Below, one piece after another: positions 2,528 to 29,793 of a stretch of DNA of 33,624 bases (position 1 is the stretch's first letter; each line of letters begins with the position of its first letter). The position numbers and the translations under genes are program-made. Source of the stretch: an uncultured Azospirillum sp. (lineage in GTDB: Bacteria > Pseudomonadota > Alphaproteobacteria > RF32 > CAG-239); the NCBI GenBank assembly GCA_947383875.1, contig CANDEX010000011.1:1-33624 (forward strand). Direction: 5' to 3'. Below the pieces are notes generated by a model, which was not told the origin of the DNA, searched no databases, and saw only the letters and a list, made by a program, of their open reading frames with translations.

Positions 2528-2608
2528 TCAGTCTATCCCCGTTGAAAGCTTTTCTGGCATAGCTATATCATACTCGTACAAAATATAAAACCTTTTTAGG
2601 AGAGTGTC

Positions 2609-2824: not shown

Positions 2825-2838
2825 CCGATACTTCAGAA

Positions 2839-2866
2839 AAGGCGCTGGACATCCAGCGCCTTTTTT
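2839..2866. terminator. Bidirectional rho-independent terminator between DUF378 gene and holA
   Basis: GGCGCTGG and CCAGCGCC form an 8-bp stem around an ACAT loop (2841-2860), followed on the plus strand by six T. On the minus strand the same hairpin is followed by TTTTCTG, so it can also stop holA-operon transcripts. The T tract overlaps the holA stop codon. Confidence 0.85.
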
Positions 2867-4443: not shown

Positions 4444-4560
4444 GTGTCTTCCTTGTTTGAACCTGTAAAACCGCGCAATTACCTCTGGTTACCCTCTCCT
4501 TCCAATTGAGTTATAAAGAGGGAAATAGAGTAATTTTCTGACTGTGTGAAATTGCTCTAG

Positions 4561-7053: not shown

Positions 7054-7059
7054 TCTAAT

Positions 7060-7515
7060 TTATTCCTCTCCTGCCGCAACAGCGCTGCGGTATAATACAC
7101 TAGCTTGGTTTAAGATAATTCTTTCAATTTCACCGGCCAAACGGCGGTCTGGCACAGTCTGCACCCATTTTCCGTTGATACGGTTCATTTTAGAAACCGT
7201 AACCTTCAAACCGTCAGCCCGCAGCTCTCCGCAGGTAATCCGCACGGCAATTTGAAACTTCTCATCCGGCACACCGTTAACCACCATCCAATCACTGACA
7301 ATCACGCCGCTGTACAAATCGCTGCGTTGCAATGGCATCTTTGACATTTTTTGCATAGCCGCCTGCCACAAATAACGGTTCACGCTCTGCGGTACGGCAA
7401 CTTCAGTTTCCTCTGCCGCCGGAACATCATCCGCCCACGGGTTCAGCGCCGTCATCCAAGAACAGCCCGGCAAGAGCAATGCCGCGGCCAATAAGCTTGC
7501 AAGTCGTTTATTCAT
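7060..7515 (-). CDS. DUF3576 domain lipoprotein
   Basis: The 151-aa product starts MNKRLASLLAAALLLPGCSW, a lipoprotein signal peptide with LPGC as lipobox. I chose the ATG complementary to 7513-7515 because AAGGAAAATAAA precedes it; the longer frame to 7575 would add a 20-residue polar tail before the signal. The mature protein carries the DUF3576 pattern: VNRYLWQAAMQKMSKMPLQ, a VIVSDWMV strand, FQIAVRITCGELRADGLKV, and a C-terminal helix with AGEIERIILNQASVLYR. The function of the family is unknown; it is nearly always found upstream of leuS in alphaproteobacteria, as here, and is presumably anchored in the outer or inner membrane. Confidence 0.85.
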   Translation of the reverse strand: MNKRLASLLAAALLLPGCSWMTALNPWADDVPAAEETEVAVPQSVNRYLWQAAMQKMSKMPLQRSDLYSGVIVSDWMVVNGVPDEKFQIAVRITCGELRADGLKVTVSKMNRINGKWVQTVPDRRLAGEIERIILNQASVLYRSAVAAGEE

Positions 7516-7655
7516 TTTATTTTCCTTGTCAGTCAAAATTGTTAAAAAGTTATATGATTTTTCCTGACTTGACAAGAGTCATAACGCATTTTCTCACTTG
7601 TAATTCGCCAAATATCGCGTAAAATATGTTTTCACAACCAACCGGGAAATAAAAT

Positions 7656-8921: not shown

Positions 8922-9896
8922 ATGCTGTTTCGTAAATTTACCCTTTCCGCCGATAACAAAACAGAAACGCCTGAAGCTCCGGCTTTGCCTGCATTAAGCG
9001 GCAAACCTATATACATCCTGGGCGATACCGCATTGGCTTATTTTCTTGCCGTAAAACTGATTGCCGCGGGACACAAAGTAACCGTCATGGCCGGACAAGC
9101 TGAAAACACCAGCCTTGCAACAAACGGCATAACCGTCAAAGAAGACTACCAGCTGCAAAAACTTCATTACAAGCTGGAAACGACCCTCTGGCTGCAAGAA
9201 GAGCCGCAAATGCTGATAATTGCCGCCCGCTCATCCAAAATCAAAGCCATGCTGACCGGCATATCCAAAAATAAAATCAAAAACTGCCCGGTCATTTCAT
9301 TTACCCGGCTTAAAGACCAGACTTTCATCTCCGATATTTTGGGCATTCCCGTTGTTTCCGCCTATTTTGACGGCTGGCTGAATTACCGCAGCCAACAAGT
9401 TACGGCCTATGGGCGCAACCCCGAAATAACCTTATGTGCCGAAACCTCTTCCGAGGCATTTCAACTATTGGCATCCTTGCTCGCCAACACCCGGATTTCC
9501 CTGCGCAACAGCAGCCTGCCGCAACAGGCTTTTTGGAGTTACTTCTGCCTCTATGCCCCTTGTTCGCTTTTAACCGCAGCCACCGGAAAAACTATTTTTG
9601 ACATTACCAAAAACAAACCCCTGCGGGAAGAATTGCAAACCCTGCTGCAGGAAATCGTCACTTTGCGGCCTTCTTCTTTGCCCCCGTTATCACCCGAAGA
9701 TTTGTTAAAGCAGATCTTCAACATCCCTTCAAATTATGTTTTTCCGTTAGCGGAACAAGTGAGGCTGCACCAAACCGGAGATTATGATTTTATCAGCTCC
9801 GTCATCCGTGATGCCGCACTCCTCAACAAATGTACGCTTCCGGCACTCAACCGCCTGCTTAAAACCCTCTGCGAACAAATTATCACTCAAAAATAA
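8922..9896 (+). CDS. Ketopantoate reductase-like protein with degenerate dinucleotide-binding motif
   Basis: The 324-aa protein has an N-terminal Rossmann-like start, PIYILGDTALAYFLAVKL, then AAGHKVTVMAG, which aligns with the NAD(P)-binding region of the ApbA/PanE family. The usual GxGAxG is replaced by GDTALA, so cofactor binding is doubtful. The middle has LIIAARSSKIKAML and CPVISFTRLKDQ, matching the family's strand with the conserved N/Q-rich turn. A helical C-terminal domain spans about residues 180-320. It is coupled to rsmB with no gap. In this lineage such genes may be reductases of unknown substrate or inactive relatives. I would not assign panE or pantothenate synthesis on this evidence. 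Confidence 0.55.
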   Translation: MLFRKFTLSADNKTETPEAPALPALSGKPIYILGDTALAYFLAVKLIAAGHKVTVMAGQAENTSLATNGITVKEDYQLQKLHYKLETTLWLQEEPQMLIIAARSSKIKAMLTGISKNKIKNCPVISFTRLKDQTFISDILGIPVVSAYFDGWLNYRSQQVTAYGRNPEITLCAETSSEAFQLLASLLANTRISLRNSSLPQQAFWSYFCLYAPCSLLTAATGKTIFDITKNKPLREELQTLLQEIVTLRPSSLPPLSPEDLLKQIFNIPSNYVFPLAEQVRLHQTGDYDFISSVIRDAALLNKCTLPALNRLLKTLCEQIITQK

Positions 9897-9994
9897 CCTT
9901 TATGCGCTGAACAACCGAACTTCTAGGTTGAAGAAAAGGTTTAAACAGATTATAAGATTAAAGAGATGAAAGTATTCAGACAAAGGATTTACTG

Positions 9995-11074
9995 ATGGAC
10001 AATTCATTTTTCATTATTGCCGCAACATTTCTTGGCTGCTTTTTAATCACATATGCTTGGTTCTCGTTCATCACGCGCAAACTATCATCGGAAAGCTTTA
10101 CTTTCCCGTTGGGCAGAGATATCTTCCTGCCGCTTTTTATTATGACATACAGCGGCATCACTTTCCTTTATTTCTTTCTTCCCGAGCAACATGATCAGCT
10201 GTTTGACTTATCCTATCTGAACATCGCCGTCATTTTCTTATCAACCCTTTTCATTTACCTGATTTCTCTCTGGCCGCGGACCGCTAAAGCCAATTGGCTG
10301 TTTTTCCTCGCCGCCGCAACAGCTGGGACAGTTTTTCTCCCGTCAGACTTTTTACTCTTTGAGGGAACGATTCCTTTTTGGGCAGACCGCTTATCTCTTG
10401 TCCTGCTGTGGGCAACCTTTGCTTGGGGATATAAATATCTCAATGGCATTGACGGGCTGGTCGCCACACAAAACTCTCTTTCAATGGCCGGTTTAGCCGC
10501 CTTGGCCTTTTTAGGCGCACTGCCGATGCTAACCGGAAGCTTCGCCGGCATTTTGTTGGCTGCAGTTGCCGCTTTTGCCGTTTATAACTGGTATCCGGCA
10601 GAATTATCCCTAAACAGCGCCGGCTGCCAGGCTTTGGGCTTTTTAACCGGATGGCTGTTTACCATAGCCGCCGTTGAGGGCGATGCTTCCTGCTGCCTCA
10701 TCCTCTCCCTTTATTACCTCGTCGAATTTGTTTGGGCGGCCACCCTTAAGCTCTCCCGCAAACCTCAACATCAGATAATGGAAAACAACACATTCTACTA
10801 TCAAACCAATCTTTCCGGTTTGTCACCAGCCTCCATTTGTGAAAATATTTTCAAAGTAAATGCTTTGCTGGTCATCTTTGCCGGCTTTCAGATTTATGCC
10901 CCCAACAACTATTCTCTGCCGGCTTTAGGGCTTATTCTGACCCTGTGGTTTATTTCTCACCTCCGCAACTGGCAAGAACCTGTCCGCAGCTTTAAAGAGC
11001 TTAACCAGGAAACCCTCAGAGATATTAAAGACAACATTGAAGACTTTAAAAAGAATATTAACAAGGACAACTAA
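9995..11074 (+). CDS. Polytopic PNPT (MraY/WecA)-like membrane protein, probably degenerate
   Basis: This 359-aa protein has about ten hydrophobic segments. It contains YKYLNGIDGLVATQ (around residues 146-159), resembling the NxxDGxDGLA motif of polyprenyl-phosphate N-acetylhexosamine-1-phosphate transferases, and YNWYPAELSLNSAG, resembling the later FNxxPAxxFLGDSGS motif. Key residues are missing: the first Asp of DGIDG is Asn150, the GDSGS aspartate is absent, and no DDxxD motif is seen where WecA/MraY have it (the region reads SLWPRTAKANW). The polar C-terminal tail (from about 320) is coiled-coil-like. It is 6 bases upstream of the TPR gene and likely co-transcribed. It could be an inactive transferase relative or scaffold; catalytic activity is doubtful. 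Confidence 0.55.
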   Translation: MDNSFFIIAATFLGCFLITYAWFSFITRKLSSESFTFPLGRDIFLPLFIMTYSGITFLYFFLPEQHDQLFDLSYLNIAVIFLSTLFIYLISLWPRTAKANWLFFLAAATAGTVFLPSDFLLFEGTIPFWADRLSLVLLWATFAWGYKYLNGIDGLVATQNSLSMAGLAALAFLGALPMLTGSFAGILLAAVAAFAVYNWYPAELSLNSAGCQALGFLTGWLFTIAAVEGDASCCLILSLYYLVEFVWAATLKLSRKPQHQIMENNTFYYQTNLSGLSPASICENIFKVNALLVIFAGFQIYAPNNYSLPALGLILTLWFISHLRNWQEPVRSFKELNQETLRDIKDNIEDFKKNINKDN

Positions 11075-11079
11075 CCTGA

Positions 11080-12438
11080 ATGACTATTCTTGACCGCCTA
11101 AAAAAACTTGTTGCCCCGGCAGCCGCATCTCAAGCCGAAATGCAGGCGGTTTATTCTGCGGCGCAGTTTAAAGTCGTCGTTATTGATTTTCTGGACAATG
11201 TCGAAAGCAGCTGCGGCGAAAATCTGGCGCGCCTGTTAAGTTCACGCGAAGGCCTGTCCCTGTCATTCTTTGATGAAAACTTTTCTAAAAACTTTCTCAA
11301 TCTGGAAAGCCGCAGCCTGTTTGATTTAATTGACCGCGGACAAACGATTATCGACCGCACCGATGCCGATGTCATCATTTGGGGCTACCGTGAAAACGAT
11401 CGTATCCGCCTTAATTTTCAAACACAGCAGCAATATGAAAAAGAAAACAGCGCTTACATATCCCTGCTCGACAGCCTGTACTTTCCGGCCATCTTTTTTG
11501 AACATCCGCAGCAATTTCCCCAAGCTATCTTAAACCTGATTTACGGTGCAGTCATCAGCTCGTTAAACAAAACGGATAACATTTCCAAAATTCAAAAAAG
11601 ATACCTTCTGAAAAAAATCATCAGCCAGTTGTCACAAGATAATTCGGCCAAAGCGGTTACGGTGGAATATATGCCTTACATTATGAATTTTTTGGGCATT
11701 ATCTATCTAAACTATGCTTATGATACGCAGGATGAAAAAGATTTCAAAATCACCAAAAATCTCTTTGAAACGGCGATTAAACATCAAGACCTAATAACTT
11801 CACCGCTTCACTTAGGTTGTATTTATTACCACCTCGGGCAACTATATGACTGTGCCACCCAACATATGGGAAACAGACCCGCCGCTTACTTCAAAGGTGC
11901 TATTGAATACTACCGCCAGGCTCAGCGCTATTTAGGAAAATACACATACCCATACGACTACGGTTATATATCCTACCGCTTATCCCATCTGTTTTTCAGT
12001 TACTGGCGGCAAAAGGAAGATTTACAGGCGCTGCGTGATGCTGTTTTTCAAATGCGCGAAGCCGAAAAAATTTATACCTACGCCTTGTTTCCTGACTTCT
12101 GGGCAGTCATTCAGGGAGAATTAGGACAAATGCTCGGGCTTCTGGGCAGCCTGACTAAAAGCGAAGATATTTCCGAACTGGCCGTCACCTGTTACCGCAA
12201 TCAGCAAAAAGTAATTACCGAACGGCGCAATCCCGTGACTTGGGCACAAGCTCAAGAAAATATCGGTGAAATTTATTACCGTATCGGTAAAAACAATTTA
12301 GATCGCTCTCGCCTGGAAGAAGCACTCGAATGCTACCATGATGCTCTGTATATTTTTGAAAATGCCGGAAATGAAGAAAAAATCAAAAACATCATGACGG
12401 ACATTGCCCGCACTAATCAGGCTTTGAACATGGTCTAA
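11080..12438 (+). CDS. TPR-repeat protein, function unknown
   Basis: The 452-aa product has an N-terminal alpha/beta region (1-150) with FKVVVIDFLDNVESS and the strand DADVIIWGYREND, and a C-terminal half of helix pairs that read as tetratricopeptide repeats. Examples are LHLGCIYYHLGQLYDCA, FKGAIEYYRQAQRYLG, AQAQENIGEIYYRIG and LEEALECYHDALYIFENAG. No signal peptide or membrane segment is seen, so it is probably a cytosolic scaffold. The N-terminal strand pattern resembles the region that precedes TPRs in some alphaproteobacterial proteins annotated only as tetratricopeptide-repeat. It follows the PNPT-like gene by 5 bases, suggesting a joint envelope-related role, but this is inference only. 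Confidence 0.65.
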   Translation: MTILDRLKKLVAPAAASQAEMQAVYSAAQFKVVVIDFLDNVESSCGENLARLLSSREGLSLSFFDENFSKNFLNLESRSLFDLIDRGQTIIDRTDADVIIWGYRENDRIRLNFQTQQQYEKENSAYISLLDSLYFPAIFFEHPQQFPQAILNLIYGAVISSLNKTDNISKIQKRYLLKKIISQLSQDNSAKAVTVEYMPYIMNFLGIIYLNYAYDTQDEKDFKITKNLFETAIKHQDLITSPLHLGCIYYHLGQLYDCATQHMGNRPAAYFKGAIEYYRQAQRYLGKYTYPYDYGYISYRLSHLFFSYWRQKEDLQALRDAVFQMREAEKIYTYALFPDFWAVIQGELGQMLGLLGSLTKSEDISELAVTCYRNQQKVITERRNPVTWAQAQENIGEIYYRIGKNNLDRSRLEEALECYHDALYIFENAGNEEKIKNIMTDIARTNQALNMV

Positions 12439-12468
12439 CCCAATTGCCTATTCTTCTGCCATGCGAAA

Positions 12469-12939
12469 TTAAGAAACCTGCTCCAGCTCTAAATCTTTCA
12501 ATTCAGAGGGATAATAATCCGCATCACAAAGATAAACCATCCAGCTTTTCCGCGACGCAACCGCCCGAAACCCATACTTCGTCAAAACAGCAATAGATGC
12601 ATCATTGCCCGGATTAATACAAGCGCTCTTCTTGACTCCTGCGGCATAATCAAATTGCAATTTTACAAGATATTTAGCATAACCTTGTCCGCGAAACTTC
12701 GGAAATGTACAATACTCCAGAAAATGAATCCCCTCAGGATTATATTTATGAAAATATGAATCAACAAAACAACACCCAATCCACTCCTTATCCGGTGTCA
12801 TGAGAATCCAACCTTTGATTTTGCGCCACTTATTACGTAAATAACTTGCAGAACAAAAGTCCTCTTCCAAAAATTCAGATTTAGCCAACTCTTCCCATTT
12901 CGCTAAATCTTCTTTGCGCATTTCCCGATAGCAAAGCAT
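12469..12939 (-). CDS. GNAT family N-acetyltransferase
   Basis: The 156-aa protein fits a single GNAT domain. Acetyl-CoA-binding motif A is visible as FLEYCTFPKFRGQGYAKYL, where R-G-Q-G-Y-A matches the Q/RxxGxG/A pyrophosphate-binding loop. Motif B follows as ACINPGNDASIAVLTKYGFRAV, with the usual N-x-x-S/A-x-x-x-Y/L-x-K-x-G-F pattern. The substrate cannot be inferred. A strong GGGAGGTGAG ribosome-binding site precedes the ATG. It converges with the TPR gene and its base composition fits the chromosomal side. It is the last recognisable gene before the left island repeat. Confidence 0.85.
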   Translation of the reverse strand: MLCYREMRKEDLAKWEELAKSEFLEEDFCSASYLRNKWRKIKGWILMTPDKEWIGCCFVDSYFHKYNPEGIHFLEYCTFPKFRGQGYAKYLVKLQFDYAAGVKKSACINPGNDASIAVLTKYGFRAVASRKSWMVYLCDADYYPSELKDLELEQVS

Positions 12940-13115
12940 TATCTTCTCACCTCCCGCGATAACCTCTCAGTAACTACCATAATTCTTAAAAGAAATGGTT
13001 AACAACCATTCAATGCGACCAAACCAGACATCTAAACTTTAACCAAGCTCATAACATGATACAATGCCTAACAACACCGCCCCCAACATGAGAGCCGTCC
13101 GTAAGACATCAATAC

Positions 13116-13641: not shown

Positions 13642-15273
13642 CTATACAGACGTACTTTTATAATTATCTAACAATTCACCTATTTCATTAACAATAGAAG
13701 GATCTGCTGCATCTGCCCAGCCTAGAACCTGTATTTTATTGTTTAATATTGGGCCACCACTATTGCCATGGCGTATATCAGCCGTAATTTCAAACTTTTT
13801 CACAGCATGCTCAGTTTTCTTTGCAACAATTTGCCCTGTTTCTTTGCGAATTTGATGCCCAAGTTCAAAGGATGGATATCCGCATAACATAATTTCAGTA
13901 CCAGTTTGAATTTTACAACAGCTTTCCAACTCAAAGTAGTCTTTATTAATAGATAGATCGTTTGCATCTTTTAGACTTAAGACAGCCCAATCCCGATTCC
14001 TATCCAGATTAACCAATTGTACATTAATACGATGGCTCGGATTTGTTGGGTTAAGAATATAAAAATTAGTCATAGGAGACTGATTAAAATCCACATCAAA
14101 TTCATTTGCAGCATTTTTTTTATTTGGAAATAAAACATGTGCAGCGGTCACAATACCGATATTTTTAAGAAAGAAACAAGTACCTTGGCTCATTCTTTCA
14201 ATCGGACTGTCATTTTTTTCTGCATTCACAGTATTCTCAATAACCCACACCGCTTTCTGTATAATTTCTTCAGGTGTCGGTTTCAAAAGAAGTTTCATAT
14301 CCGGCGACAGTATATTAAACAATTTGGCCATTTGCTGATAATAATGATCTGTAACACCTCGAACACTTTTATAAAAATTTAATTTCCCATAAATAACTTG
14401 TTTAAAGCTTTTATGACCTCTAGAGAATTTGCTGAGATATTCCTTTTCTGCATTTTCATAACCAAATTTTTTCCAGGCATGAAGCATTGCTCGTATTTGA
14501 TCACGATAATTTCTTACCAAGTTAGGCTTATCATTGATAATAAGACCTGTAACCTCCATTCTCTGCGTTTTATTCCGATAACGAACTTTATCCTCATTAA
14601 TTTGAAAATCATTTCGGGTAATTATATCAACCAATTCTTCACAAAGAATAATTTTACTAGTAACAGGATTTTCTTTAAAAAGTTCTTTCATTGTTCGTAT
14701 GGAAGAAAAAGTTATATCATCAGCATAACGAGAGTAGCGAAGACCATATTTAACAGCAAATGATTTTAGGTCATTATCGAGTCTCCTGCAAACTAATGTT
14801 GAAATGATGGGAGAAAGAGGGGAACCTTGGGTTAAACTACCGTGATATGTTGCAATTTTAGCCAAGCAGGAAGACAATTTTTCAGGAAAATTAAATGGAT
14901 GTCCATGGAATACACCATAAACGCGATTAACTGTTATGGAATCAAAAAAATCTTTAAGATCTAAATTAAGAATGTGCTTACGTTTGAGGTGGTAATTTGC
15001 GTTTGTCTTTATATCTTTGCCACGTGCAAAACCATGAACACAGTTTTTTACGTCTATCTCATCATATATAAAGTTTGCTATTTGGCGCTGTATATATTTT
15101 AATGTCTTGCAAGGGGCTGCAATTTTGCGGTAATCACCACTTTTTTTGGGAATAATATAGGGAATATAATTTTGGTCATCGCTTCTTTTGTAAATAAGAT
15201 AAGTAAAATAGCTATAATCCATATTAAGTTTTGCTGCTAACTGGATATTTGCTTTCAGTTCTGTAAATTTCAT
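13642..15273 (-). CDS. Retron reverse transcriptase fused to trypsin-like serine protease
   Basis: The 543-aa protein has two parts. Residues 1-330 are a retron-type reverse transcriptase: NANYH (91-95) fits the retron NAxxH motif, the first catalytic Asp is D105 in LNLDLKDFFDS, LTQGSPLSP is the B-motif region, the active site is YADD (183-186), and VTG (241-243) is the retron thumb motif. Residues 360-520 are a trypsin-like protease with His379 (TAAHV), Asp428 (RDWAVL) and Ser505 (GNSGGP). Retrons make a hybrid RNA-DNA from an upstream ncRNA, and the RT-msDNA complex holds an effector in check until phage infection; here the protease is the natural effector. GAGGAT precedes the ATG. Fusions of this kind have been catalogued among retron RTs; the trigger and target are unknown. 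Confidence 0.92.
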   Translation of the reverse strand: MKFTELKANIQLAAKLNMDYSYFTYLIYKRSDDQNYIPYIIPKKSGDYRKIAAPCKTLKYIQRQIANFIYDEIDVKNCVHGFARGKDIKTNANYHLKRKHILNLDLKDFFDSITVNRVYGVFHGHPFNFPEKLSSCLAKIATYHGSLTQGSPLSPIISTLVCRRLDNDLKSFAVKYGLRYSRYADDITFSSIRTMKELFKENPVTSKIILCEELVDIITRNDFQINEDKVRYRNKTQRMEVTGLIINDKPNLVRNYRDQIRAMLHAWKKFGYENAEKEYLSKFSRGHKSFKQVIYGKLNFYKSVRGVTDHYYQQMAKLFNILSPDMKLLLKPTPEEIIQKAVWVIENTVNAEKNDSPIERMSQGTCFFLKNIGIVTAAHVLFPNKKNAANEFDVDFNQSPMTNFYILNPTNPSHRINVQLVNLDRNRDWAVLSLKDANDLSINKDYFELESCCKIQTGTEIMLCGYPSFELGHQIRKETGQIVAKKTEHAVKKFEITADIRHGNSGGPILNNKIQVLGWADAADPSIVNEIGELLDNYKSTSV

Positions 15274-15755: not shown

Positions 15756-16226
15756 TTACTCATAATCCTCAAGATTGAATTCTGTACTTAAGGTGTAACT
15801 TTTAATACATGGTTTTTGATATTTTTTACGAACACAGTTGAATGATAAATAAGCGTCCTTATTTAATTGTTTTATGAAACACAATGTTTGTAAAAATCGA
15901 TCATTTACAGAGATGTGTGCATATTTTCCATCAAAAGCACCAGCTAACGGTGCATCATCGTATATTCTTTGTCTTTCAGAATATTTAAACTCAAAAACAC
16001 TTGGATCAGAAGGATTGGGATGTTCAAATTTTGTAAAAGCGTAAATAGGAACATAAGTTCCTTTGGGATAATTTTTTGCACTTGAAAAAACGATTTCACC
16101 TTTAAGTTCTAAAAATTCAGTTTGATCATCTCTATAGCCTTCAGGAAAACGTTGAAAACTTAGAGAAAGATCAAAATCTATAATTTTGATTACAAATATT
16201 ATCCCTATTTCATCCCATTTTATCAT
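15756..16226 (-). CDS. Unrecognised protein divergent from the methyltransferase operon
   Basis: I do not recognise a family. The frame from the ATG complementary to 16224-16226 gives 156 aa starting MIKWDEIGIIFVIKIIDFD; an upstream TTG at 16235 would add three residues. There is no signal peptide or lasting membrane segment. The sequence is rich in beta-type strands (LELKGEIVFSSAKNYPKG, TYVPIYAFTKFEHP) with charged loops, such as FEFKYSERQRIYDDAP. The C-terminal part has SFNCVRKKYQKPCIKSYTL with two cysteines. It faces away from the methyltransferase operon across a 117-bp gap that holds the operon promoter, so it may be regulated with that operon. It is as AT-rich as its neighbours. Confidence 0.5.
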   Translation of the reverse strand: MIKWDEIGIIFVIKIIDFDLSLSFQRFPEGYRDDQTEFLELKGEIVFSSAKNYPKGTYVPIYAFTKFEHPNPSDPSVFEFKYSERQRIYDDAPLAGAFDGKYAHISVNDRFLQTLCFIKQLNKDAYLSFNCVRKKYQKPCIKSYTLSTEFNLEDYE

Positions 16227-16286
16227 AAAAACCAATATTACCCATACTAAAAAATTAAAATTGTGTTAATAGAAGAGTTTTATTCC

Positions 16287-16343: not shown

Positions 16344-17603
16344 ATGAATTGTAAACTAAAATTTATAGATTTATTTGCCGGTTGCGGCGGGCTCTCTTTA
16401 GGATTAATGAATGCCGGCCTAGAGGGGATCTTTGCTATTGAAAAAACAGAAGATGCCTTTAAAACTCTCATCCATAATTTAGACCACAAAAAAATAAAAA
16501 ATGGATATAAATGGCCAATATGGCTACCTAAAAAAAACATGACGACTCGAGATTTACTTGATAATTATCAATCTCAATTACAAGAATTAAAAGATAGAGT
16601 AGATTTAATTGCAGGAGGACCACCTTGCCAAGGTTTTTCTTTTGCTGGTTTAAGAAACCCTAATGATCCTCGCAATAGACTTACCGAAGAATATATTGAA
16701 ATAGTATCAATCATAAATCCTAAATTCTTACTCTTAGAGAATGTCAAAGGATTTCAAGCTGCTTTTAAAAAAAATGGCGCCTCAACGCAAGCATATTCAG
16801 AGTATGTTGTTGAGAAATTATCAAACCTAAATAAAGGTTATAAAGTTTTCAGCAAAGTTTTACCAGCCTCTTTATTTGGCGTTCCTCAACCACGCCCTCG
16901 ATTTATAATGATTGCAGTGAGAAATGACATTGCTCAAAAGATATCTTACACTACTTTAGGAAACGAAGAATTCTACCAAAAAATTCTTCAACAAGCTGAT
17001 AAATTTAAAAAAGAGAACAATTTATCAGAGATTACCATTCTGGGCGACGCAATTGGTGATCTAGAAATCAAAGGGAAAAATATTATTGAATGTATTGATA
17101 GCAAAAACTTTAAACAAATAAGTTATACAGAACCTAAAATCCTTAATCCTTATTTAAAGCTTATTCGACGCAATGTAAAAAAGGATTTTATGCCTGACAG
17201 TCTTCGAATTCCAAATCATAAAAAAGAAACCAAAAATAAATTTGAATATATATTGCTGAAATCAATCAAAGGACATACTCTTTCAAAAGAACTCCGAGAA
17301 GAATTGCATATAAAAAAACAATGCTTTACAGTATTATCATCAAAAGCATTATCTACAACAATAACGACTCTTCCCGATGATTGTATGCACTATTCTGAAC
17401 CAAGAGTTTTAACGGTTCGAGAAAATGCCCGAATACAATCTTTTCCGGATTGGTTTGAATTTAAAGGTAAATATACAACAGGTGGCGATAGACGTAAAAT
17501 AGAGTGTCCTAGATACACCCAAGTAGGTAATGCTGTTCCGCCTCTTATGGCTGAAATACTTGGACAGTCAATATTAGCTATAGAAAGATTAATCAATGAA
17601 TGA
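16344..17603 (+). CDS. DNA (cytosine-5)-methyltransferase, first gene of a four-gene operon
   Basis: The 419-aa enzyme transfers a methyl group from SAM to C5 of cytosine in a specific DNA site. Motif I is FIDLFAGCGGLSLG (8-20). Motif IV is GGPPCQGFSFAG with nucleophile Cys95. Motif VI is LENVKG (131-136), motif VIII is QPRPRFIMIAV, and motif X is TQVGNAVPPLMAE near the C-terminus. The long stretch between VIII and X holds the target-recognition domain, so its specificity cannot be read. No cognate endonuclease or Vsr gene lies next to it. The last 8 bases overlap the start of the GHKL kinase gene, so the two are translationally coupled. The methylase probably supplies the self-mark read by the downstream proteins (inference). 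Confidence 0.93.
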   Translation: MNCKLKFIDLFAGCGGLSLGLMNAGLEGIFAIEKTEDAFKTLIHNLDHKKIKNGYKWPIWLPKKNMTTRDLLDNYQSQLQELKDRVDLIAGGPPCQGFSFAGLRNPNDPRNRLTEEYIEIVSIINPKFLLLENVKGFQAAFKKNGASTQAYSEYVVEKLSNLNKGYKVFSKVLPASLFGVPQPRPRFIMIAVRNDIAQKISYTTLGNEEFYQKILQQADKFKKENNLSEITILGDAIGDLEIKGKNIIECIDSKNFKQISYTEPKILNPYLKLIRRNVKKDFMPDSLRIPNHKKETKNKFEYILLKSIKGHTLSKELREELHIKKQCFTVLSSKALSTTITTLPDDCMHYSEPRVLTVRENARIQSFPDWFEFKGKYTTGGDRRKIECPRYTQVGNAVPPLMAEILGQSILAIERLINE

Positions 17604-19980
17604 GCAACAAAAACTATTTTTTCAAGTAAATGCCGGAATTAAGAATATTGTAGGCAAAGAGCTTATTCATAGTGATAGCATTGCCATAATTGAACTTATC
17701 AAAAATTCAAAAGATGCAGATGCCACTAAAAGTATCATACGATTTATAAATGAACAAAAAAGTCAAGATTCATCTTTAATTATTTCTGATAATGGTAAAG
17801 GAATGACTTTAAATGATCTAAAAAACAAATGGTTAAATGTTGCATATTCTGAAAAAAAAGAAAATATACTTAATAAATTATATGCCGGCAATAAAGGAGT
17901 TGGCAGGTTTAGTTGTGATCGACTTGGAAAAAATCTTACATTATATACCAAAGCTCAAAAGGGAAATTACATAAAGCTCTCTATAAAGTGGGAAGATTTC
18001 GAAAATAAGGGAATAAATGATGAGATGTCTACAATTCCTGTCCTTGCACAAGAATTATCAAAAAACGATTTTTTACAGGAAATAAATGTTCAAAATTTTA
18101 CAACAGGAACAATTCTTAAAATTGAAAATCTAAGAGAGACATGGCCCGCAACGAAATTAAGAAAACTAATTGCTGAGCTAGAAAAATTTTCACCATCAAT
18201 TGATGATGATTTTAGCATCTTTTTATATTCAGATAATCAAGATAACACCATTGCAAATAAGCTTAATAAGCGTATCGAAAATAATATTTTAGAAAAAGTC
18301 TCTTTTAAAACTACACACATTGAATCTTCTATTGATGCTGAAGGAAAAAACATCCACACAACTCTTTACTATCAAAATAAAGAAGTATACCGCTATTCGG
18401 TAAGAAACCCTTTTCCAAAATTAAAAAATATAAAGACAGTAATCCATTACATCGATCCATTAGCCCGTTCTTATTTTACAAGGACTGTTGGTATTACCCC
18501 CGTAGAATATGGTTCAATTTTTTTGTTCTATAATAATTTTAGAATATCTCCTTATGGAAATGTAAAGAATGACTGGTTGGGACTAGATCAACGAAAAGCC
18601 CAAGGACGTGCTCGATATTTTGGAACTCGAGAACTTTTTGGGCGTATTGATATTATTGATAAAGATAATACTTTTGATGTTTTATCCAATCGTGAAGGAC
18701 TAGCTCAAAATCAAGCGTTTATAGATTTAGTTGCGTATGATAAAGAAGATAAGACTGTTATTCTAATTGATGAAGAAGATGAAGACAGAGAAAGCTATGG
18801 CTATATTACCAATATTATCAGACAATTAGAAAATTTCGTTGTAAATGGTTTAGAATGGAATAGATTATTTGACAAACAAAATCCTTCTTCAACAAAAGTT
18901 ATATCCGAGAATGATGTTTTAAAAAATCCTGACCGTTATACAATGCGCCAGATATCATCTGAAAAAGTTAAAACTGCTTGCGAAAAACTGCTAAAATCTA
19001 ACTGGAAAATATCCGACATTCAAATTAACGAAAATCTCATATCTCATATTTTTTCTGAAGCTCAACAAAAATATGAAGAATTTTTGAATGATTTTATTGA
19101 AAAAATAAAAGACAAATCATTTACAGAATTATCTGCTACTCAAAAAGGAAATGTTCGAAAAATAATTGAACGAGAACGTCAGGCAACTAAAATTGCAGAA
19201 AAAGATAGGGATATTGCTGAACAAAAAGTAAAACAAGCACAAACAACCATTGATACACAGCAACAAACCATTTTAGAAAAAGAGAAAACCATTGAACAAA
19301 TAAACAGCCAAAACGCATTTCTTAAAAAGACAAGCAGTCAGGATGTTGAAGACCTTATTATATCAATGCATGCTATACTAGTAAATACATCTACCATAAG
19401 AAATTGTTTATTAACTCTGCTTGAAGACCAAAATATTTCAAACGAAACAAAAGATAATTTAGCCCTTATTAGCGAGGCTAATCAAAAAAACTTTAATATT
19501 GCTAAATTTGCCACATTATATAATTTTTCAGATAAACAAAATATTATAAATGGCGAGCTAACGGTATTCATGCATGAATATTTAAAAGAGGCAAAAGAAT
19601 TTTCAGCTAATCGTCGTATCCAAATACACGACCAACTCAACACCAGTATTCTTTTAAATAAAGAATTTATTCCCCTTGAAATTATGATGTTATTAGAAAA
19701 TATCATCTCTAATTCAAAAAAAGCGAAAGCAAAAAATTTATTTATATCAAACACATTACTACAATCTGGTCAAATTAAATTTTCTTTTAAAGACGATGGT
19801 AATGGAATAACGGAAAAAAGATTTTTGGATAACATAAATTTAATATTTGAAAAAGGAGAAACCTCAACCAAGGGCTCAGGAATAGGTTTGTATCAAATAA
19901 ACAAAATAGTAAAAAAACTAAAAGGTAAAGTTGGAGTAAAAAATTACAATAATTGTTTTGAACTGGAGATTATTTTCTAA
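17596..19980 (+). CDS. Dual GHKL protein: MORC/Hsp90-like ATPase plus histidine kinase core
   Basis: This 794-aa protein has two separate GHKL ATPase modules. The N-terminal one is MORC/Hsp90-like: N-box IIELIKNSKDADA (E33, N37, D40), DNGKGM (65-70) and GNKGVGRFS (98-106), followed by an S5-like region to about 420. A charged coiled coil spans roughly 520-575. Then comes a dimerisation helix with candidate phospho-His592 (LIISMHAIL) and a histidine-kinase ATP domain: LENIISNSKKA (E701, N702, N706), DDGNGI (733-738) and KGSGIGLYQ (759-767). There is no membrane segment, so it senses inside the cell. Prokaryotic MORC-like ATPases are known beside restriction-modification genes. The stop overlaps the next gene's ATG by one base (TAATG), pairing it with the receiver protein. 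Confidence 0.85.
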   Translation: MNEQQKLFFQVNAGIKNIVGKELIHSDSIAIIELIKNSKDADATKSIIRFINEQKSQDSSLIISDNGKGMTLNDLKNKWLNVAYSEKKENILNKLYAGNKGVGRFSCDRLGKNLTLYTKAQKGNYIKLSIKWEDFENKGINDEMSTIPVLAQELSKNDFLQEINVQNFTTGTILKIENLRETWPATKLRKLIAELEKFSPSIDDDFSIFLYSDNQDNTIANKLNKRIENNILEKVSFKTTHIESSIDAEGKNIHTTLYYQNKEVYRYSVRNPFPKLKNIKTVIHYIDPLARSYFTRTVGITPVEYGSIFLFYNNFRISPYGNVKNDWLGLDQRKAQGRARYFGTRELFGRIDIIDKDNTFDVLSNREGLAQNQAFIDLVAYDKEDKTVILIDEEDEDRESYGYITNIIRQLENFVVNGLEWNRLFDKQNPSSTKVISENDVLKNPDRYTMRQISSEKVKTACEKLLKSNWKISDIQINENLISHIFSEAQQKYEEFLNDFIEKIKDKSFTELSATQKGNVRKIIERERQATKIAEKDRDIAEQKVKQAQTTIDTQQQTILEKEKTIEQINSQNAFLKKTSSQDVEDLIISMHAILVNTSTIRNCLLTLLEDQNISNETKDNLALISEANQKNFNIAKFATLYNFSDKQNIINGELTVFMHEYLKEAKEFSANRRIQIHDQLNTSILLNKEFIPLEIMMLLENIISNSKKAKAKNLFISNTLLQSGQIKFSFKDDGNGITEKRFLDNINLIFEKGETSTKGSGIGLYQINKIVKKLKGKVGVKNYNNCFELEIIF

Positions 19981-20864
19981 TGAAACTAGATTATAAAATA
20001 TTATGGATTGAAGATGATGAAAGTTTTAAAATATCAATAAAAAAAGATATTGAGCACCATATTTTAGATAAAGGATTTAATCCAATTATTGAAACACCGA
20101 ATAAACTATCTTCTGAAAACATTAAAACTGAAAATTTTAAAGATTATGATTTGATGTTAATAGATTTTACATTAAAATCACTGGCAGATCAATCAGGTGA
20201 TATTATTATTGAAAAAATAAGACGCAAAAGTATATTTACCAATATTGTATTTTATTCTAGTGATACAGAAAGATTAAAAAAAGAAATACATGAAAAACGT
20301 TTAAGTGGCGTTTATTTATATGACAGAACAGACTTTGAAAAAGATAATATTGATACTTTTTTTGAACTTGTAGATTTTTTTCTGGAAAAAGATATGGATA
20401 TAAACACCTTACGAGGAATCACCATGGCAGAGGTTGCTCAGTTTGATAAAATCATTTGGAACATTATCGAAAAAGAAAATTGTAAAGAAGAAGTTGCAGA
20501 TAAAATCAAAAAACAAAAGCAAGATTCTTTTAATAAAATTAAAGATTTATCTAATGATGATCTTTGGCTAAAAGCAAAAGATGAAGGAACAAAAATTTTT
20601 GACAGTTCTTGTCGAAAGGATGTATTACATAGTAAAATTTTAAAAGATAGGCATCATTGCAATGATTTTTGCAACAAATCAAAAAATTGTTACACAGACA
20701 TTATGAATAAATATACTACAAACGTACTTAAATATAGAAACGAATTAGCTCATCATATAACTCCCCAAATTACAAAAGAACAAAGTCTTGAATTAAGAAA
20801 AAACCTTATTAATTTTAGAAATATATTCAAAGAAATGGAAGAATGTTTATGTTCAAAGCCGTAA
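19980..20864 (+). CDS. Response-regulator receiver domain fused to HEPN-like RNase domain
   Basis: The 294-aa protein begins with a receiver fold: ILWIEDDESF (acidic E11, D12, D13), DYDLMLIDF with phospho-acceptor candidate Asp62, and IVFYSSD with Ser93/Ser94 at the switch position. The conserved receiver lysine is not clear; the region reads GVYLYDRTDF. The C-terminal half (about 142-290) is all-helical and contains KYRNELAHHI, where R253-N254...H258 fits the Rx4H motif of HEPN ribonucleases. It also carries a Cys/His-rich insert (HHCNDFCNKSKNC, 225-237). The natural reading is a kinase-controlled HEPN toxin: phosphotransfer from the upstream kinase would activate RNA cleavage. The HEPN call rests on the motif and helical context and needs profile support. 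The start overlaps the kinase stop. Confidence 0.75.
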   Translation: MKLDYKILWIEDDESFKISIKKDIEHHILDKGFNPIIETPNKLSSENIKTENFKDYDLMLIDFTLKSLADQSGDIIIEKIRRKSIFTNIVFYSSDTERLKKEIHEKRLSGVYLYDRTDFEKDNIDTFFELVDFFLEKDMDINTLRGITMAEVAQFDKIIWNIIEKENCKEEVADKIKKQKQDSFNKIKDLSNDDLWLKAKDEGTKIFDSSCRKDVLHSKILKDRHHCNDFCNKSKNCYTDIMNKYTTNVLKYRNELAHHITPQITKEQSLELRKNLINFRNIFKEMEECLCSKP

Positions 20865-21283
20865 TTTTTGATATAGATGGAACTCTTGCAGATAATTCAG
20901 AAAGACAAAAATATCTTTCTGAATTAAAGTGGGACATGTTTTTTAGTGAAATGGGAAACGATTACCCTGTTAAAGAGGTTTTAGAACTTTATAATCTAAT
21001 CAAAAATTCACAACAATATAAAATGATAATAGTTTCAGGACGTCCAGAAAAATATAAAAAGCTTACAGAGCAATGGCTTACATGGAATAATATTTATTAT
21101 GATGATCTTTACATGAGAAAAGACGGTGATCAGAGAAAAGATAATGTGATTAAACAAGAAATCCTTAAACATATAAAAGAAAAATATGAAATATTATTTG
21201 CTTTTGATGATAGAAAATCTGTCGTTGATATGTGGCGTGAAAATGGTGTATTTTGTTTTCAATGTCAAGATCATAATTACTAA
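20849..21283 (+). CDS. PNKP-type polynucleotide 3'-phosphatase-like HAD protein
   Basis: The 144-aa protein matches the HAD phosphatase domain of T4 polynucleotide kinase/phosphatase and bacterial Pnkp relatives, without the kinase half. It has the nucleophile motif FDIDGTLADN (D8, D10), IIVSGRPEKYKKLTEQWL (motif II Ser63), DDLYMRKDGDQRKDNVIKQEIL (the family's signature block, with the motif III region), and AFDDRKSVVDMWRENG (motif IV D120, D121). Such enzymes remove 3' phosphates from RNA or DNA ends. I prefer the second ATG at 20849: GGAAG lies 7 bases before it but only 1 base before the ATG at 20843. The gene overlaps the HEPN gene by 16 bases. It may heal ends left by the RNase, or process cyclic-phosphate products. 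Confidence 0.78.
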   Translation: MFKAVIFDIDGTLADNSERQKYLSELKWDMFFSEMGNDYPVKEVLELYNLIKNSQQYKMIIVSGRPEKYKKLTEQWLTWNNIYYDDLYMRKDGDQRKDNVIKQEILKHIKEKYEILFAFDDRKSVVDMWRENGVFCFQCQDHNY

Positions 21284-25797: not shown

Positions 25798-26161
25798 TTC
25801 TATTCTCCTGTTTATTTTGTTCTAAAAACTGTTGTAAAATTTCTTCATCTCTTAAAGACAATTTGCTTGTTTCCAAGGATTGCTCCTCTTTCATATCTAA
25901 CTGCATCATGTATGGGAAAAGTGCCGCAATGGCCTTGATTTCACCTTTTACCGCAGCATTGACCAACTGCATCAGCATTGCCTGCTTTTTGGTAATGCTG
26001 ACGGTCTTACCCTCTTGCTGAATTTTGATTTTCTGTTCCAAAACTGCATCCAGAAGTTTGAGCGTATTTTTGCTTCCTTTTGGCCTCCCAGCCGGATTAC
26101 CTGAACACCCCTTCTGAAATCGCGAATGTTTGGGTGGATTTTTATAACCGCTTTCACTCAT
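25790..26161 (-). CDS. DUF5681 domain protein, probable small-terminase-like partner
   Basis: The 123-aa product begins MSESGYKNPPKHSRFQKG, then GNPAGRPKGSKN, the DUF5681 signature (F-x-K-G-x-S-G-N-P-x-G-R-P-x-G). The rest is helical: LKLLDAVLEQKIKIQQEGK, ITKKQAMLMQLVNAAVKGEIKA. The family is typically encoded directly before TerL in prophages, and is thought to include small-terminase or DNA-binding partners (established context, function not proven). The start is the ATG complementary to 26159-26161, which overlaps the methyltransferase stop (ATGAGTGA arrangement); the frame to 26197 would add an unsupported tail. It overlaps TerL at its other end. Confidence 0.85.
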   Translation of the reverse strand: MSESGYKNPPKHSRFQKGCSGNPAGRPKGSKNTLKLLDAVLEQKIKIQQEGKTVSITKKQAMLMQLVNAAVKGEIKAIAALFPYMMQLDMKEEQSLETSKLSLRDEEILQQFLEQNKQENRND

Positions 26162-27488
26162 TGACTTCCTCCAGTTTTTCTTGCAATAATTGCTCATATG
26201 ATTTTTGCGAATCTTGGTGAATTGCCCAAATTCCGGTCAATTCATGATACCGACGAATAATCGTATCAATATACAATGGCTCATATTCAATTCCATAACA
26301 AACGCGCCCGGCTTTTTCAGCCGCAATCAACGTTGTCCCGCTGCCTAGAAACGCGTCTAGAACAATATCGCCGCGTTTGGACGCATCCAGAATCGCGTCA
26401 CGTACTAATTCTACAGGTTTGACTGTCGGGTGTAATTTGAGATTTTTTTGCTCGGAGCCAAAACTATTCACTCCGGCATAATGCCAAACATTTGTTCGAT
26501 ATCGACCGTGTTTGCCTAATTCCACATTATTAAGGTGAGAACCTTTGCCATTTTGAAAAACAAAAATCAATTCATGCTGAGATCGGTAAAAACTACCCAT
26601 ACCGCCGTTTTTCTTACACCAAATCACTATATTCAGCATCTTGGGATAAATATCCCGAGATGCTGAAAGCAGTTCATAAATATGCCGCCAATCCATACAA
26701 ATATAATGAACGGAATTTTCAACAGAATATTTGGCTATATTTGCCATTGATGTTTTCAAAAACGAAATAAATTCAACCTCATTCATCTCACCGGAAGCAA
26801 AAGCAAACTCGTTATGCTTCGTCTGACCAGCACCGCATACATGTCCTTGAATTTTAACATTATATGGCGGATCAATAAAAACCATATTAGCTTTAATTTG
26901 TTCAAACAAACGCAGGTATGTTTCCTCTTGCAGCGAATCTCCGCAAATAATTTTGTGCTTTCCCAATAACCAAACATCACCGTGTTGGCTAACTATTTCA
27001 TTTTCCGGTACATACGGAACGAAATTAAGTTTTTCATCTGCTTTTTCGTTAGGTTTGTCTTCAGCCAGAAGAACGTCTATTTCCTTAAAATCAAATCCGG
27101 TAATATCCAAATTCAGTTCATCTTCAAGGTTCAGAGCCAATTTTTCAATTTCTGAAAATTCCAGCTTCAATAAATCCGTATCCCATCGGCCATTCTCCGA
27201 TAATTTATTATCCGCTATGCGATAAGCCCGTTTTTCCGTTTCAGAAAGATGTATAAGACGAACGATCGGAACTGTTTCCTGTTTCAACAGCTTTGCTGCC
27301 AACAGACGCCCATGACCGGCAATTACTTCTGATTTTTCATCAATCAAAATAGGATTGTTAAATCCAAAACGCTCAATCGATTTAGCGATTTGCTGAATTT
27401 GTTTTTCATCATGAACCTTAGGATTTCCTTTATAAGGGTTAAGATTTTCCAAGGCTGTATATTCAATTTTTATTTGCTTATTAAACAT
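26154..27488 (-). CDS. ParB-like nuclease domain fused to DNA N-methyltransferase
   Basis: This 444-aa phage-type protein has an N-terminal ParB/sulfiredoxin domain (1-100), with NPKVHDEKQIQQIAKSI and the GHGRLLAAK motif (58-66). The C-terminal methyltransferase holds DPPY (206-209), VHYICMDWRHIYELL, and the SAM-binding FLGSGTTLIAAEKAGR near residue 388. DPPY before FxGxG places it in the beta group of N6-adenine or N4-cytosine methyltransferases. Such fusions sit beside terminase genes in many alphaproteobacterial prophages, probably shielding the phage DNA from restriction. AAGGAG precedes the ATG. It heads the operon with DUF5681 and TerL. The target sequence cannot be read. Confidence 0.92.
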   Translation of the reverse strand: MFNKQIKIEYTALENLNPYKGNPKVHDEKQIQQIAKSIERFGFNNPILIDEKSEVIAGHGRLLAAKLLKQETVPIVRLIHLSETEKRAYRIADNKLSENGRWDTDLLKLEFSEIEKLALNLEDELNLDITGFDFKEIDVLLAEDKPNEKADEKLNFVPYVPENEIVSQHGDVWLLGKHKIICGDSLQEETYLRLFEQIKANMVFIDPPYNVKIQGHVCGAGQTKHNEFAFASGEMNEVEFISFLKTSMANIAKYSVENSVHYICMDWRHIYELLSASRDIYPKMLNIVIWCKKNGGMGSFYRSQHELIFVFQNGKGSHLNNVELGKHGRYRTNVWHYAGVNSFGSEQKNLKLHPTVKPVELVRDAILDASKRGDIVLDAFLGSGTTLIAAEKAGRVCYGIEYEPLYIDTIIRRYHELTGIWAIHQDSQKSYEQLLQEKLEEVNE

Positions 27489-27719: not shown

Positions 27720-28172
27720 ATGAGAAAGAAAATTTATCTGCCGAGAAGCGCTGAAGAGCTTAAAAGCATGAACCACAAAAGTCAGGCTGAATTATGGGTG
27801 CGGTATCATAACAGTCCTTATGAACGGCAGTTTCGGGCATTATGGTATTATATCGCCTGTGAAAACGCCAATCTTAAAATTGAACGCAAACATCTGACTA
27901 AACTGGAAAAATATGCCGAAAACCCCGATGAGTGTATGGTTAAGGTTTATAAGACCAAATACAACCTGCATCCCGGCACCGAAATTATCAAAACCTATCA
28001 CGGCCGACAATATAAGGTTACCATCGCGGAAGCAAATGATTTTATCTACAACGGACAGCATTATAAAACCTTATCGGCCATCGCTAAAGAAATCTGCGGC
28101 ATAAAGGTCTCTGGCTATGACTTCTTCGGATTAAATAACAAACGGGTATTAAAGGAGGCGGCTCATGGTTAG
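27720..28172 (+). CDS. DUF2924 domain protein, partner of serine recombinase
   Basis: The 150-aa protein shows the DUF2924 features: an N-terminal helix LPRSAEELKSMNHKSQAELW, an internal stretch with YERQFRALWYYIAC, then a small beta domain reading HPGTEIIKTYHGRQYKVTIAE and NGQHYKTLSAIAKEICGIKVSGYDFFGL, the hallmark block of the family. DUF2924 genes almost always sit directly upstream of large serine recombinases in alphaproteobacterial prophages, and may be a directionality or accessory factor (inference). AAGGAG precedes the ATG by 6 bases. The recombinase start overlaps the last 8 bases, so the two are co-translated. Confidence 0.88.
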   Translation: MRKKIYLPRSAEELKSMNHKSQAELWVRYHNSPYERQFRALWYYIACENANLKIERKHLTKLEKYAENPDECMVKVYKTKYNLHPGTEIIKTYHGRQYKVTIAEANDFIYNGQHYKTLSAIAKEICGIKVSGYDFFGLNNKRVLKEAAHG

Positions 28173-29793
28173 AGTAAACTGTGCGGTCTATGTCCGCAAA
28201 TCTACCGAAAAAGGCTTAGAGCTTGAATTTAACTCCCTGCATAATCAGGAAGACGCCTGTCGCAGTTACATTATGTCTCAAGCCTTTAACAACTGGGAAT
28301 ATTTCAAAACCTATACCGATGGCGGTATTTCCGGCGGCACAATGGAACGCCCGGCTTTAAAACAAATGCTTGAAGACATCCGCCGAGGATTAGTTCAAAC
28401 GGTAGTGGTTTACAAAGTTGACCGATTATCACGCTCCATCATGGATTTCCACAACATGATGAAAGAGTTTGATAAATATGGCTGCAGCTTTGTTTCGATC
28501 ACACAGGCATTTGATACCTCAACCTCCATGGGCAAGCTGACGTTAAATATGCTGCTGTCCTTTGCCCAATTCGAGCGAGAGGTCTCCTCGGAACGTGTCC
28601 GTGATAAAATCCGCGCCAGTAAAGCCAAAGGCTTATGGACGGGCGGCGTCCCCAAACTTGGTTATGATATTCAAGACAAAAAACTGGTCATTAATCCCGT
28701 CGAAGCCGAACAGGTACGCAGCATTTTTGAAGGCTATTTACAATGCGGCTCTCTGGCCGAACTTGAGAAATTTGCTGAAATTAAAGGTTTCAAACATAAA
28801 AGCTGGATAACCAACAAGGGGGAACAGAGAGGCGGCAAACCTTTTAAAATATCCGCGCTCCACCGCTTGCTGCATGAAAAATTATACCTCGGCATGATTG
28901 AGAACAAACGCACCGGACAAGCATTTAAAGGACAGCATGAGGCTATCATATCAAAAGAATTATGGGAAAAGGTGCAAGCCAAGCTCAAAGAAAATGACAA
29001 CAGCTCTAATCATACAAGGAACAGAAACAATAATCTGCTGACCGGCAAGTTATTTGATGCCAATGGCACCATTTTTACCAATCAAGCTAACAGCAAAAAG
29101 AAAGCTACCAAACGACATTACTATTCTATTAAGGGCTTGTTCTTACCCACGGAGCAAATTGATAAGCTCGCTAAAGACGCCATAATTGAAATTCTTAACA
29201 GTAATCTTAATGGGCTGAACAAAGACAGCGCCGTAGCTCTAAAGCTGATAAATTTTACCGATATGGACTACTTCGGGCAACACAATTTTATCCGCAACTT
29301 CATTAACAAAATCATTTATCAGAAGGATCGCCTGACCTTCTTTTTTAATACCAATCCAGAAGTTCTCTCGGCCTACACCGCCGATTCGCTAAACCAAAAC
29401 GATACCTCGTTGGAGTTTATTACCGATAATGCCAACAACCAAATCATCTATGAAAAACAGGTGGTCATCAACCGCGGATTATCAAGCAATGTCTATAATG
29501 CCGGAAAGGTAGGACTGATGAGTATCAATGACAACAACCGCCTCATCGTCAGAGCCTTTGCCTATGCATGGAAATTTAAGAAACTATATGAAAAAGGCAT
29601 CCGGATGGAAGACATCATGAAACAAGAAAGAATGACCAAGCGTACAATTTACAAATATCTCAACCTTGCTTATCTCTCGCCAAGAATAGTAAACCAACTT
29701 CTCTCCGGAACTTTAACCGTCAACCTGCAAACCCTCTTTGAAGTAGCTTCTAAAAATCTAAGCTTCGAAGAACAGGAAAAAGAAATATTTTAG
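28165..29793 (+). CDS. Large serine recombinase (phage integrase)
   Basis: The 542-aa recombinase cuts and rejoins DNA to move the element. The N-terminal resolvase domain (1-150) has the nucleophile Ser13 in YVRKSTEKG, then DGGISGGTMERPALK, VVYKVDRLSRS and FAQFEREVSSERVRDK with the conserved arginines. The recombinase domain (about 170-280) contains VPKLGYDIQDKK and EKLYLGMIENKRTG. The usual zinc-ribbon cysteines are absent in the LLTGKLFDANG region, as in other alphaproteobacterial members. A helix-turn-helix-like end (EDIMKQERMTKRTIYKYLNLAYLSP) lies near the C-terminus. All parts look intact. It ends 4 bases past the stop of the convergent HEPN-like gene and lies near the right repeat, as expected for an integrase. 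Confidence 0.94.
   Translation: MVRVNCAVYVRKSTEKGLELEFNSLHNQEDACRSYIMSQAFNNWEYFKTYTDGGISGGTMERPALKQMLEDIRRGLVQTVVVYKVDRLSRSIMDFHNMMKEFDKYGCSFVSITQAFDTSTSMGKLTLNMLLSFAQFEREVSSERVRDKIRASKAKGLWTGGVPKLGYDIQDKKLVINPVEAEQVRSIFEGYLQCGSLAELEKFAEIKGFKHKSWITNKGEQRGGKPFKISALHRLLHEKLYLGMIENKRTGQAFKGQHEAIISKELWEKVQAKLKENDNSSNHTRNRNNNLLTGKLFDANGTIFTNQANSKKKATKRHYYSIKGLFLPTEQIDKLAKDAIIEILNSNLNGLNKDSAVALKLINFTDMDYFGQHNFIRNFINKIIYQKDRLTFFFNTNPEVLSAYTADSLNQNDTSLEFITDNANNQIIYEKQVVINRGLSSNVYNAGKVGLMSINDNNRLIVRAFAYAWKFKKLYEKGIRMEDIMKQERMTKRTIYKYLNLAYLSPRIVNQLLSGTLTVNLQTLFEVASKNLSFEEQEKEIF

Follow-up and report, generated by a model that had tools for sequence, protein, structure and literature searches.

The closest described relatives of the system considered here are the HEF_HK/Response_reg_2 loci of PMC8011034 (2021). 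The available part of that paper puts the linkage between a response-regulator-like family and GHKL/HATPase kinases at 91.6%, C5 methylases often lying upstream, and gives the regulators, which were gathered from a 600-aa query, no other known domain. Two-component regulation of restriction-modification was proposed there for the family. HEPN domains (Ymh) are recorded, in the available text of PMC3710099, as fused to paraMORC ATPases and not to receivers. Here we describe a four-gene operon at positions 16344-21283 of a 33624-nucleotide stretch of DNA (the window) from an uncultured Azospirillum sp. (contig CANDEX010000011.1). It has the HEF_HK-type architecture of an N-terminal HATPase_c_3, a C-terminal HATPase_c and an adjoining C5 methylase, followed by a receiver-HEPN protein and a phosphatase. 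What might a restriction-like recognition module do in such company? In our view it probably drives a phosphorelay, not a DNA nuclease, as a form of anti-phage abortive infection carried on mobile DNA. The system is real, conserved and modular, and defence or addiction by phosphorelay-controlled suicide is its likely role.

The operon and its products

All four genes lie on the plus strand, and the features on which the argument draws are these.

16344-17603, plus strand: C5-cytosine DNA methylase, 419 aa (profile match and motifs)
17596-19980, plus strand: double-HATPase kinase, 794 aa (profile search and alignment)
17680-18036, plus strand: N-terminal GHKL ATPase of the kinase, residues 29-147, HATPase_c_3 (Pfam)
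19216-19239, plus strand: kinase recombination seam, near residues 541-548, where similarity to sister locus L001 ends
19369-19371, plus strand: codon of His592, invariant in 26 homologues
19678-19938, plus strand: C-terminal kinase ATPase, residues 695-781, HATPase_c (Pfam, solved-structure profile match)
19980-20864, plus strand: receiver-HEPN protein, 294 aa (alignment, predicted model)
19980-20393, plus strand: receiver domain, residues 1-138, with Asp62 (alignment, predicted model, fold search)
20397-20861, plus strand: HEPN domain, residues 140-294 (profile searches)
20736-20753, plus strand: RNELAH, residues 253-258, the HEPN Rx4H motif (alignment)
20843-21283, plus strand: PNKP-type HAD 3'-phosphatase, 146 aa (144 aa from the ATG at 20849), an accessory gene

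The genes overlap by 8, 1 and 22 bases, the last figure becoming 16 if the second ATG is the phosphatase start, and the gene identities and the operon proposed in a first-pass annotation made from the letters alone are supported. The profile searches that it recommended recover the methylase, both HATPase domains and the PNKP-type HAD phosphatase with Pfam, while the third protein has no match; PADLOC (2023 library) names the methylase alone among the four. Its remark that no DNA nuclease is encoded also stands, in that neither Pfam nor NCBIfam recognises such a domain in the four proteins.

The methylase carries the motifs DLFAGCGG, PPCQ (with Cys95), ENV, QPRPR and GNAVPP. Within the kinase E33, N37, D65, G67 and G69 of the first GHKL domain are invariant across 26 aligned homologues, and NCBIfam places this domain nearest to the BbrUII/HgiDII restriction enzymes (NF050001, E 2.4e-15); the domain and the residues after it are presumed to be the sensor. 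Further on, a segment spanning roughly residues 562-782 matches histidine kinases of known structure, and the acceptor histidine and catalytic N and G boxes are present, with H592, N702, N706, G737, G760, G762 and G764 invariant in 26/26. His592 is presumed to be the site of phosphorylation.

The third protein has a receiver fold with a phospho-acceptor aspartate and acidic residues, Asp62 being invariant in 55/55 homologues, and the RN pair and H258 of its HEPN motif are equally constant (55/55 each). In the predicted model a helix at 237-258 precedes another at 266-291, such that the Rx4-6H motif ends the penultimate helix, the placement given for HEPN proteins in the available text of PMC3710099. 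On these grounds the receiver and HEPN assignments of the first-pass annotation are supported. Among relatives 10/40 match HEPN_RiboL-PSP (best E 1e-6). Compared by profile with solved structures, the HEPN domain had no significant match (best E 0.24), and the Foldseek and VIA-align matches of the whole model are filled by receivers and hence uninformative on the C-terminal fold. In a motif scan of 13 DUF4145 relative loci a comparable RN..AH helix was seen in L115 alone.

The phosphatase matches PF25109 (1.5e-38), Pnkp1 (4xrp, E 3.9e-21) and 1ltq (6.6e-17), and carries DxDGT, SGR and DDR motifs. Unlike full-length Pnk of the T4 type it has no fused 5'-kinase domain and represents the phosphatase part alone.

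Relatives and their effectors

A set of 92 loci was assembled from 80 kinase relatives, the best of 349 present in GTDB genomes, and from 4 and 8 viral-contig loci. Their origins include Pseudomonadota, Verrucomicrobiota, Melainabacteria, Elusimicrobiota, Bacteroidota, Chloroflexota, Campylobacterota, Spirochaetota and a methanogen assembly, and relatives of the operon occur on viral contigs and plasmids. A methylase is found near the kinase in 87/92 loci, just upstream in 80, and where a receiver-type gene was found it starts at most 20 bp from the kinase end in 89 of 90 loci, overlapping the kinase in 81. The co-occurrence elsewhere that the first-pass annotation looked for is thus observed, and its four-gene functional unit survives as a three-gene core, the phosphatase being accessory. 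Incidence was 2/398 Pseudomonadota and 6/247 Bacteroidota genomes, rough lower bounds in that each count includes the genome on which the draw was centred and few candidates were scored per genome.

Two kinds of effector follow the kinase, HEPN in 56 loci and caspase in 29. A receiver next to the kinase was recognised in 53/84 loci: R[NDEQ]xx[AS]H is present in 47, G replaces A in 3 and the remaining 3 are incomplete. In the caspase branch a separate lone receiver and a caspase-fold protein replace the receiver-HEPN protein, and the His and Cys pair of the latter is invariant (21/21). Profile searches added 7 genome regions, 4 with receiver-HEPN and 3 with a lone receiver and a caspase-like gene. 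The lone receivers (for instance L035:10610-11302, A4 family) end in a conserved C-terminal tail with F211 invariant, to which the caspase-like protein may dock.

Phosphatases accompany the HEPN branch, the PNKP-type in 14/56 loci and an unrelated calcineurin-type in 5/56, giving 19/56 against 0/29 caspase loci (Fisher p 1.8e-4). The calcineurin-type protein that was tested (L036) has its best match in ApaH-type models (4.9e-26), with a further match to bacterial Pnkp over its phosphatase part (6.4e-18). 2',3'-Phosphates are substrates of lambda phosphatase and of bacterial Pnkp. Both types may process RNA ends in connection with the RNase branch, either repairing or locking the damage. The handling of RNA ends suggested by the first-pass annotation gains indirect support because this second, Pnkp-matching type occupies the phosphatase position in 5 HEPN loci.

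Several individual loci deserve mention. On the Stenotrophomonas rhizophila plasmid CP031730.1 (L085:7132-8462) a receiver and a caspase-like open reading frame follow the methylase and GHKL genes; both frames are missing from the PLSDB gene table, a table known to be incomplete. Campylobacter plasmids (L088:5007-9460) hold a distant relative with a kinase, a response regulator and a dcm gene on the opposite strand, and inspection by eye of the regulator C-terminus gave no RNxxAH motif. An opposite-strand open reading frame apparently interrupts the kinase at L104:7989-11972, and the methylase match at L017:2843-4065 and the receiver at L014:10405-11384 are each split over two open reading frames. 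The archaeal assembly (Methanosarcinaceae, L054:7944-11529) has the kinase, receiver-HEPN and upstream methylase, and may be mis-binned.

A recombination seam within the kinase

The modular nature of the system shows in a comparison with sister locus L001 (Azospirillum sp. CAG:239). In 40-residue blocks the two methylases are 92-100% identical, as are the kinases to residue 520, after which kinase identity is 70% in 521-560 and then 20-38%. The receiver protein blocks agree at 7-40% and those of the phosphatase at 85-100%, while the upstream retron-type gene is identical at 523/543 positions. On the DNA level a similarity of 94.2% stops at 19239 and returns (93.7%) at 20846.

The same break recurs elsewhere. 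In 7 discordant pairs identity drops within the 30 residues from kinase residue 541, from 57-100% in six and 37% in the seventh to 13-30% inside that interval; 4/7 come from the same 4 Campylobacterota loci (L028, L036, L055, L057) and are non-independent. For 113 pairs, drawn from 77 rows and likewise non-independent as pairs have loci in common, kinase residues 1-360 are at least 70% identical, and the core identity is below 35% in 43, at least 60% in 64 and between in 6. This two-peaked distribution argues against just a faster-evolving kinase core. Close sensors also occur across the two effector branches, those of HEPN locus L053 and caspase locus L067 being 83% identical over residues 1-430 and their kinase cores 26%.

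Co-inheritance was followed by partial rank correlations of distances over 47 rows including the window, with permutation p values. The kinase core correlates with the receiver (0.38) and with the HEPN domain (0.42), each at p 0.001, and the methylase with the sensor (0.37, p 0.001) and not with the kinase core (0.06, p 0.14). As judged from these comparisons the kinase core and the receiver/effector are swapped together, the methylase and sensor staying in place, and such exchange between the presumed sensing and killing halves has happened repeatedly in nature. The signalling from kinase to receiver-HEPN proposed in the first-pass annotation is in this way supported as a partnership, indirectly, through the joint inheritance of the kinase core with the receiver/HEPN protein. 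Both the seam and the caspase-fold alternative are additions to what that annotation contained.

Which component reads the DNA sequence? Methylase segment 181-340, which we take to contain the target-recognition region, is less than 40% identical in 13/113 pairs with similar sensors, 8/12 of the lowest pairs belonging to a single cluster (L030, L034, L041, L043, L044). The kinase sensor has no stretch as variable among the pairs listed, except around 361-400. Because this methylase segment varies and the sensor mostly does not, the comparison suggests, without proving, that sequence reading would be supplied by the methylase.

Proposed mechanism and alternatives

The proposed cycle would begin with the C5 methylase, which from its family is expected to mark host sites. 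The GHKL half of the kinase, acting with the methylase, may then register unmodified or otherwise abnormal incoming DNA, upon which the kinase core would autophosphorylate at His592 and hand the phosphate over to Asp62 in the cognate receiver; the partnership is supported by co-inheritance and the chemistry is inferred. Phosphorylation would free or dimerise the HEPN domain, RNA would be cut and the cell or phage stopped, and elsewhere the same kind of sensor would serve a separate receiver and caspase-fold protein. Finally, the phosphatase could strip 2'/3'-phosphates off HEPN-cut RNA ends, either for recovery of the cell or to deny substrate to a phosphate-dependent ligase. The fuller view is of an immunity class combining methylase and GHKL ATPase, a phosphorelay, interchangeable suicide effectors (receiver-HEPN RNase or receiver plus caspase-fold protease), a fixed kinase seam and RNA-end phosphatases on the RNase branch; taken as a whole we put this forward tentatively, at slightly under even chances.

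A number of observations weigh against this reading. The search for a methylase close to the kinase came up empty in 5/92 loci, of which at least one is cut by a contig end. Receiver position 116, which we take to be equivalent to the conserved lysine after strand 5, is arginine in 46/55 homologues. The window HEPN domain stays below the Pfam cut-off (best HEPN_MAE_28990, 16.6 vs 26.8 bits), and a model of the caspase-like protein gives weak Foldseek E-values, none at or below 0.001. The link of phosphatases with HEPN loses its significance when kinship is taken into account (4 independent pairs; kinship tree of 84 rows, 79 bearing an effector label), and weak correlations remain across the seam, between receiver and sensor (0.20, p 0.001) and between methylase and receiver (0.11, p 0.027).

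Could the same parts serve another purpose? In an addiction module loss of the element would let methylation decay, the kinase would fire and the HEPN or caspase-like effector would kill the cured cell. The regular presence of the methylase near the kinase and the mobile setting with plasmid or viral relatives agree with this, yet the retron gene next door suggests a defence island and the operon parts fit defence equally. We rate addiction as unlikely, and both readings can hold together. Less likely again is ordinary two-component regulation of restriction-modification, as proposed for the related 2021 family, with HEPN as a non-catalytic RNA-binding or regulatory part. The kinase and receiver are canonical in layout, as this would have it, but no DNA-binding output domain is found in the operon proteins with Pfam or NCBIfam, the HEPN active-site residues are invariant, other loci use a caspase-fold protein with its invariant His/Cys pair, and most inspected loci have no nuclease gene to regulate.

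A disguised restriction system, where the GHKL part acts as in BbrUII/HgiDII-type enzymes and a DNA nuclease is supplied in trans, appears very improbable. That model is the nearest to the GHKL part, and an HNH gene follows in L072 and in the plasmid relative L087; on the other side, the match covers kinase residues 29-210 against a 659-position model at 56.1 bits (cut-off 550), and the C-terminal half of the protein is a kinase. Two other candidates were rejected on Pfam and NCBIfam results: a transcription-factor output, for which the operon proteins contain no such domain, and conventional type II restriction-modification, the unit having no nuclease domain.

If the phosphorelay reading is true, methylation-based self recognition would feed a signalling cascade and not a DNA nuclease, thereby joining restriction with two-component signalling. 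A single phosphorylation switch would then govern effectors of both the HEPN and the caspase-fold kind. As the natural swaps provide matched and mismatched kinase/receiver pairs, the way in which GHKL ATPases of restriction loci report on DNA is testable by kinase assay.

Genomic setting

The neighbouring genes of interest are as follows.

13642-15273, minus strand: reverse transcriptase-trypsin-like protease fusion (PADLOC RT-Protease_XI, 2.4e-154, retron type XI)
15756-16235, minus strand: 159-aa protein of unassigned family that separates the operon from the retron gene, 150/159 identical in L001
24232-29793: region to the right of the operon with terminase large subunit, methyltransferase fusion and recombinase
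26154-27488: ParB-like/DNA methyltransferase fusion, right of the operon
28165-29793: large serine-type recombinase/integrase, right of the operon

The type XI retron gene adjoins the operon here and is also present in L001. The terminase, the ParB-like/methyltransferase fusion and the recombinase/integrase suggest that the region is a prophage or island. Guanine-cytosine content is 29.1% in the operon, 46.0% in window bases 1-13000 and 38.1% to the right of the operon. An alphaproteobacterial origin is indicated by the nearest relative and by a near-identical kinase, the latter from a search that scored 7997 candidates, with 120 of 1112 listed. At 7656-8921 (plus strand) residues 204-377 of a gene product match PADLOC mad2 (mads_2, E 1.5e-26), which may be a coincidental shared domain.

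Comparison with known systems

How far does the locus depart from what has been described? As the sources are available in part, the following likenesses and differences extend to those parts. The paraMORC/BbrUII-HgiDII GHKL restriction proteins (PMC2292703, NF050001) also place a GHKL ATPase beside a cytosine methylase, but the window has a histidine kinase core as output and not a nuclease. In GHKL-Shedu VcSduA (PMC12137116) an N-terminal GHKL ATPase likewise controls an anti-phage effector, which there is a fused nuclease, with neither methylase nor phosphorelay described. Detocs (PMC11249213) puts two-component parts to use in abortive defence, its best-described effector being an ATP-cleaving PNP, again with no methylase described. 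With VapKSC/CapKS (PMC13373217) a GHKL kinase activates an RNase toxin or immune operon after DNA damage, but through serine phosphorylation of a STAS protein instead of a His-to-Asp relay, and no methylase is described. PrrC, RloC and the restriction-modification-linked HEPN proteins (PMC3710099) tie HEPN RNases to restriction loci, whereas control in the window lies with a receiver domain and a kinase. In the DefensePredictor study (PMC13092281) HATPase and REC appear in the legend to a figure of predicted systems with unvalidated domains, which may include the present family. No locus that sets a receiver-HEPN protein, or a receiver plus a caspase, next to a C5 methylase was found in the literature searched, which left out most subscription journals. 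The general design is already published; no description was found of its effectors here, of the accessory phosphatases or of the seam.

That design is the one of the HEF_HK/Response_reg_2 loci (PMC8011034), which share with the window a C5 methylase, a kinase with HATPase_c_3 and HATPase_c, and a regulator-like partner in one neighbourhood. The combination is therefore not wholly unknown, as the first-pass annotation had thought; neither HEPN nor caspase output is described in the available text. Filing the operon under this heading was rejected, as its receiver profile PF19192 (Response_reg_2) gives no window match at E up to 1 and is absent from the six searched genomes that carry the present system (0/6), whereas it works in matching 8/299 Pseudomonadota genomes. 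For PF19191 (HEF_HK), run without a positive control, there was likewise no window match at E up to 1. The PF19192 regulators that were sampled lie in open frames of 567-817 aa; kinases in their 8 regions measure 993-1078 aa, and 7/8 regions have a methylase match. On account of the missing PF19192 and the different frame and kinase sizes, the window is a separate branch of the HEF_HK/Response_reg_2 design, and the mechanism set out here, if true, suggests a function for the related 2021 family, the output of which is left open in the available text of PMC8011034.

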